DNA from: a bacterium
Lineage (GTDB): Bacteria > Desulfobacterota > Anaeroferrophillalia > Anaeroferrophillales > Tharpellaceae
Length of the DNA: 37,535 nt
Assembly (NCBI GenBank): GCA_029932385.1
Contig: JAOZQE010000009.1
Location: forward strand, 1-37,535
Reading direction: 5' to 3'
The position numbers and the translations under genes are program-made. Below are positions 29,794 through 36,122 of the stretch, one piece after another; position 1 is the first letter of the stretch, and every line of letters starts with the position of its first letter. Under the pieces are notes generated by a model, which saw only the letters and a program-made list of their open reading frames with translations, ran no database searches and was not told the origin of the DNA.

Positions 29794-31437
29794 TTATCCC
29801 TTCAAAATTCGTTTGGCAGAATCATCAAGGACATCGGTCAGGAAGGGGACGCCGGTTACGGTTTCGGTCTCCCGGTTGCCGGAGAAAAGCTCATCCCGAG
29901 TGATATCATTAACGTTGAATTTCCGGGCACCGGCCAGCAGTTGCTGGAGGCCGGCCGCCAATTTGTCCGCCATCGTGAACATGGCGATGGCGCCGTAGGG
30001 GATATTTTTCATCTCGTCGGCTCCGACTTTTTTCACAACATCGTAGTAGCTGGCAAAAATCTCATCAGCGGAACGTCCGTATTGAGCAACGTTTGGTGGC
30101 AGAGCATCCCAGTTGCCGCTTAAGCGTTGGCGCTCATCCGGTTTAACGACCCCTTCAATGTTGGCGCCGAGGTAGCCGGGGATCATTACGGCCCGTCCCA
30201 TGAGGGCGAGTTTTGTGAACGGGGCACCCAGAGAGAGAGTTTTGAAGATATGGTCTTCACGAGAGAAACCACCGCCTAAGCAGAGGTCGACGACTTTATC
30301 TCCCTGGTTGGCCAAAATGCTGGCATATTCATAAGCTTTGGAATGTAGGTGAATTGAGGGAACACCCCAGGTTTCCATCATGTTCCAGGGGCTCATGCCG
30401 GTGCCGCCGCCGGAGCCGTCAATGGTCAGTAAGTCAAGCTTGGCTTCGGTTGCGAACTTGATCGACATAGCCAGAGCTTCCATACCGTAGGAGCCGGTTT
30501 TTAACGTGATTCGTTTGTAACCCAGGCCGCGCAGATAGTCGACGGAGTTCATGAAATCTTCCTTGACCTCGTCAACTCCATTAAGATTGGTGTAGCCTAA
30601 ACGACTGTGACGGGCGAAGGAACGAATGGCGCCGTGTTTGAAGGCTTCCTGAACTTCCGGCAGCGTCGGATCGGGATCGACGATGTAGCCGCGACCTTTA
30701 AGGAACTGAGCGTATTCAATACTGGTGACCTGGATTTCACCACCGATATCTTTAGCTCCCTGGCCCCATTTAAGCTCGATGATGACTTTTTCGCCGCCGT
30801 ATTTGCTGATGATATATTCGGCCACGCCGTTACGTGTATCTTCAACGTTCATCTGGACGATAATCGCACCGTAGCCGTCGTAGTAGCGCAGGAAAGTGTC
30901 GATGCGGCGGTTAAGTTCCGGGGCATTGACAATCTTGCCATCTTTGAGAACCGATTCTTTATCAACTCCGACAACGTTTTCACCGACAACAATCGGAAAA
31001 CCGACCAGAGCCGCGCCGACGGCAAATGATTCCCAATATTTGGCGGCGATGAAGGTTGATCCGAGAGCGCCGGAGAGCAGCGGAACCCGGCATTTGGTTT
31101 TCATCTCCTGGCCGAATTCGGTCTCGATATTAACATTCGGAAAGATACAATCATCAGGATCGTTGGTCAGTCCTTGAGCCAAGCCGTGAGCGCCGTAGTT
31201 GTAACCCTGAATCCGCAGAGAGTTGTAATTAACCCCGACATGGGTGGTGTTAGCGCTGCCCGCTGTAATCGTGCCGAAGTCTCTCGGATAGAGGAGTTTG
31301 CGACCTCGGATGCTTGAGAGCCAGGTTTCACATTTTCCTTTGCAGTCGGATCGACAGAGCGTGCACAGACCCGATTCACAGGGGTTTCCCCGGTTGACGG
31401 TTCCCAGAGCGTCGTTTGCTTTCGGCCATTGGATCAT
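29794..31437 (-). CDS. Stand-alone FMN-binding glutamate-synthase-like protein (547 aa)
   Basis: TIDGSGGGTGMSPWNMMETWGVPS, VIIELKWGQGAKDIGGEI, KRITLKTGSYGMEALAMSIKFATEAKLD; N-terminal cysteine cluster CESGLCTLCRSDCKGKC. Confidence 0.88.
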   Translation of the reverse strand: MIQWPKANDALGTVNRGNPCESGLCTLCRSDCKGKCETWLSSIRGRKLLYPRDFGTITAGSANTTHVGVNYNSLRIQGYNYGAHGLAQGLTNDPDDCIFPNVNIETEFGQEMKTKCRVPLLSGALGSTFIAAKYWESFAVGAALVGFPIVVGENVVGVDKESVLKDGKIVNAPELNRRIDTFLRYYDGYGAIIVQMNVEDTRNGVAEYIISKYGGEKVIIELKWGQGAKDIGGEIQVTSIEYAQFLKGRGYIVDPDPTLPEVQEAFKHGAIRSFARHSRLGYTNLNGVDEVKEDFMNSVDYLRGLGYKRITLKTGSYGMEALAMSIKFATEAKLDLLTIDGSGGGTGMSPWNMMETWGVPSIHLHSKAYEYASILANQGDKVVDLCLGGGFSREDHIFKTLSLGAPFTKLALMGRAVMIPGYLGANIEGVVKPDERQRLSGNWDALPPNVAQYGRSADEIFASYYDVVKKVGADEMKNIPYGAIAMFTMADKLAAGLQQLLAGARKFNVNDITRDELFSGNRETETVTGVPFLTDVLDDSAKRILKG

Positions 31438-31473
31438 AGTGGTCTCCTTTTACTTTTTTAAAAGTGGTTTTGT

Positions 31474-31487
31474 GGCAAAGGTTTGCC
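31474..31487. promoter_or_regulatory. Palindrome, candidate NrpR operator 2
   Basis: GGCAAA-GG-TTTGCC, perfect 6-2-6 inverted repeat (equivalently GGCA-N6-TGCC), 36 nt upstream of the glutamate-synthase-like start. Confidence 0.55.
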
Positions 31488-31587
31488 GGATAGGGTGTAA
31501 GCTTTTCCCTCTACCATTAACTATTATTCTCTGTCAAGTGGGTAATATATTCTTTTTTACCGTAGAGTAAAAAATGGTTTATTTTTT

Positions 31588-31615
31588 AATTAATCGGCAA
31601 TTTTGCCGATTAATT
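31588..31615. promoter_or_regulatory. Palindrome, candidate NrpR operator 1
   Basis: AATTAATCGGCAA-TT-TTGCCGATTAATT, perfect 13-2-13 inverted repeat just upstream of TATAAT (31624-31629). Confidence 0.65.
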
Positions 31616-31742
31616 TTGTATCGTATAATATATTTATCGCATATGGTGCGCTTTGAGCACTTGACTTTATCGTGGTTCCGACATACTGTAATTATTGTCA
31701 AGTAAGTCTGGATCAGGGTTATATATGAAAAATGGAGAATAG

Positions 31743-34458: not shown

Positions 34459-35778
34459 TTAAAGCTTTAGGCGTAAATGACTACCGATAAGTTTGAGCAA
34501 TGAATGCGGCACATTGTGTTCGGCGGCCAAGTCATTCCATCTTGAAACATGCTCTGTAGTCTCCTCAATTATCCGATCAATTTTCCGTTTACTGAATATC
34601 GGGCTTAATCTCTCAAGACTATAAAAATCTTCTCGGGTAAAGTTGTCTCGCTTGCCATTGAGCTTCATCCAGTGACTATTAACCCAATGGCTTCCTGGCT
34701 TGTAGCTGTAGGCTAAATCATAGGCAGGAGTTAATTGCCACTGCTGTTGATCATCGAGCATGAAGCCAAAGTTTTTGGAATGATCATCATGGTTACGCGC
34801 AACAATATTAAAAACCATGCGTTTAAATATTTGCATTGCATCGTCAGGGCTTAATTTGAGCTCTCTGGCAATTGTGAGTAGTTCGGCATAAGAGTACGAG
34901 CCTGCTTTTTTGTAGCTGACATGGGCCAGACCATTTAATGTTTGTACATGCCGCTTTTTATTGCCATCTCGATCAAACCGCCGGGTGATGAAGTGGCGTC
35001 TATCACCTTCATTCAGCAAGTGGCAGGGCATCATCTCTATCCCGCATGCTTTCGCCATGAGGTGATAAACATACTCCATTGTACCATACCCCATCGGATC
35101 GCCAAAAGTCTCCTTATCTTTGTTATGTTCGCTGACGCCATCAAATTTTATTATAAAATGAGTAAACCCTTCAGGTGCATCTGTTTGCCCTGATCGCACT
35201 TGGGTGAAATCATCGTTAAACGCGAGTACAGCTTTTGGCCTGCCGCCACCTGCACTCACACCGACAGACAATAATGCCATCATGGCTTCTTTATCTTCTT
35301 CTCCCTGTGCGCCAAGGGCTATCCTGAATTGTTCTCGCTTATCTAAGACTTTCTGGGCAATAGAAACCAAAGATTGAATTTCAATATGTTGTGAAGCGTT
35401 TAAGTTTTTTCTTTGGGTCGCAGGGTGATATGTTAATGCCCCCATGCCCCGCTTTCCGGTATATTGAAGACGCTGTATCGGGGTGATGTCAGCTGTCGAT
35501 TTACCTTGGCCGGCTATCCAGGCATTCAATACAGCATTACCAAAATCATCAGGCAATGAGTCCGCTATCATTCCAGGTAACCCGTTGAAGGCAGCAGGAT
35601 CAGCTTCTGGAAATGAATATATTTTTCGAGATAAAGGCATTTTTATAGGCGATAGCTCTATCCCTGTTTTGATAAAGCGAGGTTCAAATTCGAAAGAGCC
35701 TATACCTGTTTCAGTATTGAAACTGACAGCGCCGACATCATGCGCTTTATATTTTACCCTGACGACGTCCTTTACCAT
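34459..35778 (-). CDS. HipA-type serine/threonine kinase toxin
   Basis: GVSAGGGRPKAVLAF, FIIKFDG, HFITRRFDRDG, FNIVARNHDDHSKNFGFMLDD, LTPAYDLAYSY; 439 aa. Confidence 0.92.
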   Translation of the reverse strand: MVKDVVRVKYKAHDVGAVSFNTETGIGSFEFEPRFIKTGIELSPIKMPLSRKIYSFPEADPAAFNGLPGMIADSLPDDFGNAVLNAWIAGQGKSTADITPIQRLQYTGKRGMGALTYHPATQRKNLNASQHIEIQSLVSIAQKVLDKREQFRIALGAQGEEDKEAMMALLSVGVSAGGGRPKAVLAFNDDFTQVRSGQTDAPEGFTHFIIKFDGVSEHNKDKETFGDPMGYGTMEYVYHLMAKACGIEMMPCHLLNEGDRRHFITRRFDRDGNKKRHVQTLNGLAHVSYKKAGSYSYAELLTIARELKLSPDDAMQIFKRMVFNIVARNHDDHSKNFGFMLDDQQQWQLTPAYDLAYSYKPGSHWVNSHWMKLNGKRDNFTREDFYSLERLSPIFSKRKIDRIIEETTEHVSRWNDLAAEHNVPHSLLKLIGSHLRLKL

Positions 35779-36122
35779 GAGGATTTATCCTCTTTTGTCC
35801 GAGTATTCCTGTTTTTAGATCTTGACGCTCGTTGTCTTTCCCGGCCTTTGAGTTTCGCCAACTGGACAGGGGATATTTCTTGTGCAGGTAGAAAAACATT
35901 GAGTTGGTCTGCCATATCCATTGAGACTAATATGGCGACAAGATTCTCCAGCCGAACCTTTCCTTTTTCAGCATTAAGAATAGTCCTTCTATTCAGGCCC
36001 GCTCGTGATGCCACTTCAGCCTGAGTTAAATCAGCATTGAGCCGGGCCTGTTTCAGCCGGTTGCCTAATTCTTCCGCTATAGCGACGGGAGACATATTTC
36101 TAAGTTCCATAATATTACCCAT
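35772..36122 (-). CDS. HipB-type XRE-family antitoxin
   Basis: LGNRLKQARLNADLTQAEVASRAGLNRRTILNAEKGKVRLENLVAILVSM (XRE HTH); overlaps the hipA-like start by 7 nt. Confidence 0.88.
   Translation of the reverse strand: MGNIMELRNMSPVAIAEELGNRLKQARLNADLTQAEVASRAGLNRRTILNAEKGKVRLENLVAILVSMDMADQLNVFLPAQEISPVQLAKLKGRERQRASRSKNRNTRTKEDKSSW

Follow-up and report, generated by a model that had tools for sequence, protein, structure and literature searches.

The window analyzed here, the whole stretch of 37,535 nucleotides, contains an nrpR gene and a divergent glutamate-synthase-like (gltS-like) gene, with two palindromes in the intergenic region between them (Table 1). The initial annotation had called these genes as nrpR and as glutamate-synthase-like, and both calls stand. 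NrpR belongs to the family of NrpR regulatory domains (NRDs) defined by PF01995 (E=7.5e-76, 254.9 bits, cut-off 25), while its N-terminus belongs to the winged-helix family PF08461 (E=1.7e-17, 63.6 bits). In the structure model, the helices and wing of the winged helix occupy residues 1-64, and a low-confidence hinge at residues 75-81, which could permit two half-site spacings, joins the winged helix to the NRD. The NRD matched that of MJ0159 (PDB 3nek) both in a profile search (E=1.2e-41) and in a fold comparison (E=4.9e-19, TM-score 0.90 over the target). The match of the gltS-like protein to PF01645 is partial (E=8.3e-13, 48.7 bits, cut-off 20.4). Cys 25/28/32/36 of this protein are invariant in 19 homologues, and its fold has moderate similarity to glutamate synthase 1ofe, a top match alongside other FMN TIM barrels. 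We infer that it may make glutamate. The records of close relatives are labelled Candidatus Tharpella and Deltaproteobacteria. In locus L330 of genome G044, the gltS-like gene is followed on its strand by a carA-like gene (carbamoyl-phosphate synthase small subunit), and the two possibly form one operon. Elsewhere in the window, ORF translations alone point to a minus-strand pair of HipA-like and HipB-like (HTH) genes (34459-36122).

Table 1. Features of the nrpR/gltS-like locus, in window coordinates
Feature	Position	Strand	Remark
gltS-like gene, FMN TIM-barrel protein with N-terminal Cys cluster	29794..31437	-	presumed target
Candidate N6-class operator TGGCAAAGGTTTGCCG, target side	31473..31488	.	
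-35-like TTGACA of gltS-like gene	31532..31537	-	N6 operator begins 49 bp downstream
Candidate N4-class operator, nrpR side	31588..31615	.	13-bp-arm inverted repeat, core CGGCAATTTTGCCG at 31595-31608
Candidate -10 (TATAAT) of nrpR	31624..31629	+	8 bp after N4 inverted repeat
nrpR, HTH_12 winged helix and one NRD, 331 aa	31743..32738	+	PF01995, PF08461

We found both palindromes where the initial annotation had placed them, but their description as a perfect 28-bp and a perfect 14-bp palindrome was slightly overstated because the central TT of site 1 and the central GG of site 2 are not symmetric. Site 1, on the nrpR side, consists of the arms AATTAATCGGCAA and TTGCCGATTAATT, which are 13 bp long and 100% complementary, around the 2-nt TT spacer. 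Site 2 (31474-31487) has the 6-bp arms GGCAAA and TTTGCC around the GG. The half-site previously described as common to both is indeed shared and is one base longer, YGGCAA...TTGCCR, so that the cores read GGCA-N4-TGCC at site 1 and GGCA-N6-TGCC at site 2 (the N4 and N6 classes). Each core has one mismatch-free occurrence in the window, in both cases within the nrpR/gltS-like intergenic region. Across the 2.35-Mb assembly (90% complete), mismatch-free patterns with the flanking Y and R number six for N4 and three for N6. The other perfect N4 matches in this genome fall within coding regions, and the sole other intergenic match outside the nrpR locus lies upstream of etfB. Within Candidatus Tharpella (L055, L056, L058), the arms of the N4 repeat reach 12-15 bp in several species, and the outer arm sequence varies by species while symmetry is retained. 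This suggests that a longer palindrome around the N4 core may be under selection in Candidatus Tharpella.

Conservation was assessed in 80 nrpR loci from GTDB genomes and in further loci from relatives. In the 70 divergent loci, nrpR faces either a gltS-like gene (49 loci) or the glutamate dehydrogenase gene gdhA (21 loci). We counted sites with at least 11 of 12 matches at spacings from N3 to N8 in 26.7 kb of intergenic DNA, with first-order Markov shuffles as control. The divergent loci contain 89 N4 sites, 84 N6 sites and 2 sites at any other spacing, where the shuffles lead one to expect 0.25-0.45 per spacing (0.4 for N4 and about 0.45 for N6). After dereplication at 70% NrpR identity, 29 loci retained 36 N4 sites, 35 N6 sites and none at another spacing, while about 150 kb of neighboring coding DNA contained 28 matches with all spacings pooled. 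According to their record labels, the loci with sites come from Thermodesulfobacteriota/Deltaproteobacteria, Planctomycetes, Hydrogenedentota, FCPU426, Firestonebacteria, Goldiibacteriota, Chitinivibrionales and Victivallales. Where gdhA stands in for the gltS-like gene (21/70), the sites are retained, a case of non-orthologous replacement. In bacteria of different phyla that share this gene pair the sites are strongly kept, and the earlier proposal that the two palindromes are candidate NrpR operators gains support, at the level of sequence, from 173 N4 and N6 sites in the divergent loci. About a dozen nrpR loci are missing the motif, and no alternative palindrome was found in common among them.

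The 2-bp difference in spacing between the two palindromes had been regarded as a caveat. We found that it is instead a conserved, position-specific property because the order of the classes holds in 59 of the 60 loci that contain both, with all N6 sites confined to the target-gene side and all N4 sites to that of nrpR. The same order was observed in 27/27 loci when perfect sites alone were considered and in 22/23 loci after 70% dereplication. The N4 spacer is restricted to A/T in 54 of 56 perfect sites, and the N6 spacer is unrestricted. Spacing class is not tied absolutely to the gene: in G035 both nrpR and an unlinked gltS-like gene have N4 sites, and in G050 a single N6 site precedes nrpR, with gdhA then following 3' on the same strand. 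These class swaps favor one protein reading both spacings, and it is plausible that NrpR reads the N4 and the N6 geometry.

We next consider the sites relative to promoters. The N6 site of the window begins 49 bp downstream of the TTGACA of the gltS-like gene, which is about +13 if a weak putative -10 (31508-31513) and the corresponding putative start are used. Of 37 gltS loci, 30 have a TTGAC box 20-54 bp before the N6 site (2.2 expected). At this distance N6 covers approximately the stretch from the -10 into the early leader, the place in which a repressor would sit and block polymerase. On the nrpR side, site 1 had been assigned to the -35 position of a TATAAT-containing promoter, and a -35 separated from the TATAAT by 17 bp would indeed fall inside site 1; members of the genus have a similar TATAAT or TATAAA at the same spacing after the N4 repeat. 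This promoter stays a candidate because a sigma-70 consensus scan does not report it. Since TTGAC boxes are weakly enriched on the nrpR side (14 of 66 loci, 6 expected), the nrpR promoter is less certain than the target promoter.

Sites were also found at targets away from nrpR. The gltS-like gene of G054 is on a different contig from nrpR and has a perfect N6 site 64 bp upstream, that of G035 is separated from nrpR by about 500 kb and has a perfect N4 site just upstream of its ATG, and gdhA of G003, an unlinked target, has its own N6 site. Conversely, none of 12 loci with gltS-like genes in 11 genomes without detected nrpR contains an N4 or N6 site. These data suggest that the sites follow the target gene in trans and co-occur with nrpR, with three exceptions: G018 (96% complete) has a perfect N6 site upstream of gdhA (L210) and no detected nrpR, and G007 (70% complete) and G020 (81% complete) likewise have sites and no detected nrpR.

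The initial annotation had also considered wider targets (glnA, amtB, glnB and nif). For amtB, in the 500 bp before each amtB match from 13 nrpR-bearing genomes and in its first 150 bp, we found no N4 or N6 site above 10/12 and only a few weak 10/12 matches, which argues against that extension. Pattern matching in 18 genomes, rather than gene by gene, listed no perfect N6 site at glnA or nif, and other PF01645 genes (GltB type) have no sites upstream. Among the matches listed for the relatives, most perfect ones outside nrpR, gltS and gdhA are coding, and a few lie outside long ORFs, these without an evident nitrogen gene. As an additional target, etfB has a perfect N6 site 12 bp before its start in the window's genome; it is not supported because the site has a mismatch in G002 and neither G001 nor G005 contains it. 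The bacterial NrpR regulon looks narrow, directed at glutamate and not at amtB, and narrower than that of Methanococcus maripaludis. Site positions suggest autoregulation together with control of the synthase-like gene, as first proposed. In the one genome examined, a perfect N6 site sits where a fumarase-like gene ends, just before korD/korA-like genes for 2-oxoglutarate:ferredoxin oxidoreductase (L202, G054:C118:55980); as a regulon member it is suggestive but isolated.

NtrC/sigma-54, GlnR/TnrA and NtcA control ammonium assimilation by 2-oxoglutarate or glutamine status, and sigma-54 promoters contain GG and GC elements 12 bp apart (TGGCAC-N5-TTGC). Bacterial NrpR would resemble these systems in its proposed control of nitrogen assimilation, but the folds are unrelated, the operators differ and the sigma-54 spacing does not occur here. 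With archaeal NrpR (M. maripaludis; the two-protein system in Methanosarcina mazei) it shares the NRD by sequence and fold, palindromic half-sites starting with GG, and predicted operators at nitrogen-assimilation promoters (84 N6 sites at gltS-like/gdhA), often two per promoter. It differs from archaeal NrpR in its bacterial host, its apparently bacterial promoters, its GGCAA half-site, its second, N4 spacing class and its single NRD, whereas M. maripaludis NrpR has two NRDs. The N6 spacing equals that of GGAA-N6-TTCC, which precedes nif, glnK-amtB and glnA in M. maripaludis (PMC2723118), and two operators are reported at the archaeal nif promoter (Lie et al. 2005, cited in PMC9765008). Unlike in archaea, where glnK-amtB has operators, the predicted bacterial targets are gltS-like/gdhA and nrpR and not amtB. 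Furthermore, bacterial nrpR appears autoregulated, while transcription of archaeal nrpR is reported to be unchanged by nitrogen supply (PMC9765008). A literature search, whose scope left out most subscription journals, found no report of a bacterial NrpR regulon or operator.

We propose that YGGCAA half-sites are bound by NrpR, probably as a dimer, via its winged helices. At the target promoter, NrpR on GGCA-N6-TGCC between the -10 and about +30 would block transcription of a glutamate-forming enzyme, encoded by the gltS-like gene here and by gdhA in other lineages. On the N4-spaced site (GGCAAWWTTGCC) at its own promoter, NrpR would autoregulate. 2-Oxoglutarate rises under nitrogen shortage and, by homology with archaeal NrpR, would then release the repressor and thereby turn on glutamate synthesis. 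The observed conservation, spacing classes, positions and co-occurrence with nrpR and glutamate genes make it very likely that the palindromes are operators through which a bacterial NrpR controls both glutamate synthesis and its own gene. Binding and repression are what we infer from this pattern, and relief by 2-oxoglutarate is likely by homology. The reading as a whole, in which the adjacent NrpR represses glutamate synthesis and itself until relieved by 2-oxoglutarate, has in our judgment a high probability of being correct.

Whether a single protein would serve both spacings is a finer question. One regulator could use two geometries, N6 for its metabolic target and N4 for its own gene, as a code that is kept across phyla and survives the swap from the gltS-like gene to gdhA, with the 2-bp difference setting affinities or 2-oxoglutarate thresholds; we regard this as evenly poised. 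If the affinities or thresholds differ, target and repressor would each be released at a nitrogen level of its own. The A/T-only N4 spacer against the unrestricted N6 spacer could, however, mean two proteins, NrpR for one spacing class and another protein for the other, with the second factor controlling the nrpR promoter, and the classes further differ in spacing and are separated by promoter. We consider two regulators unlikely: the half-site is identical in both classes, we saw no further conserved regulator gene at the locus, and the classes swap roles, with N4 at the unlinked gltS-like gene as well as at nrpR in G035 and N6 alone at nrpR in G050.

Some N4 sites on the nrpR side lie upstream of a TTGAC box, as would suit an NrpR that activates glutamate genes. 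Activation is improbable, however, because N6 sites stand between the -10 and the target gene's 5' leader, a position that blocks polymerase, and because the archaeal homologues are repressors (PMC9765008). It is more doubtful still that the palindromes act as sigma-54 promoters or, at the RNA level, as terminator or leader hairpins. The N4 repeat of the window lies upstream of both predicted promoters and so would be untranscribed; in addition, the stems are short, both arms are retained and the sites are flanked on either side by a gene start. In G035, by contrast, GGCAATTTTGCCG recurs within an unrelated terminator-like hairpin located downstream of the gltS-like gene. The TGGCA...TTGC sequence resembles -24/-12 elements, but sigma-54 would require an N7 class, and none was found in the intergenic regions of the 70 loci. 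Single N4-type cores do arise in coding DNA (15 per 150 kb), yet chance palindromes in A/T-rich intergenic DNA have a vanishingly small probability against 173 sites in 26.7 kb (about 0.85 expected for both classes) in strict order, and for the site family as a whole chance is excluded.

Control of glutamate synthesis and of nrpR by NrpR would give a concrete role, that of a narrow glutamate-synthesis switch, to a family that is known for nitrogen control in archaea but is present in many uncultured bacteria; among 500 candidate stretches (genome_contigs) there were 479 loci coding for relatives. It also raises the question of how one winged-helix protein would recognize two half-site spacings. 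The reading of two geometries by one protein is the part most worth testing, and operator sequences are at hand for a binding assay. At some gltS promoters, N6 sites form tandem pairs 22 or 32 bp apart (L060, L070, L071, L079, L083, L118; L069, L073), a distance of approximately 2 or 3 helical turns that recalls the paired archaeal operators. In another locus (L120), two nrpR paralogues stand face to face, and a 32-bp perfect palindrome with an N4 core, ACGGTATATCGGCAATATTGCCGATATACCGT, lies between them together with further N4 and N6 sites.
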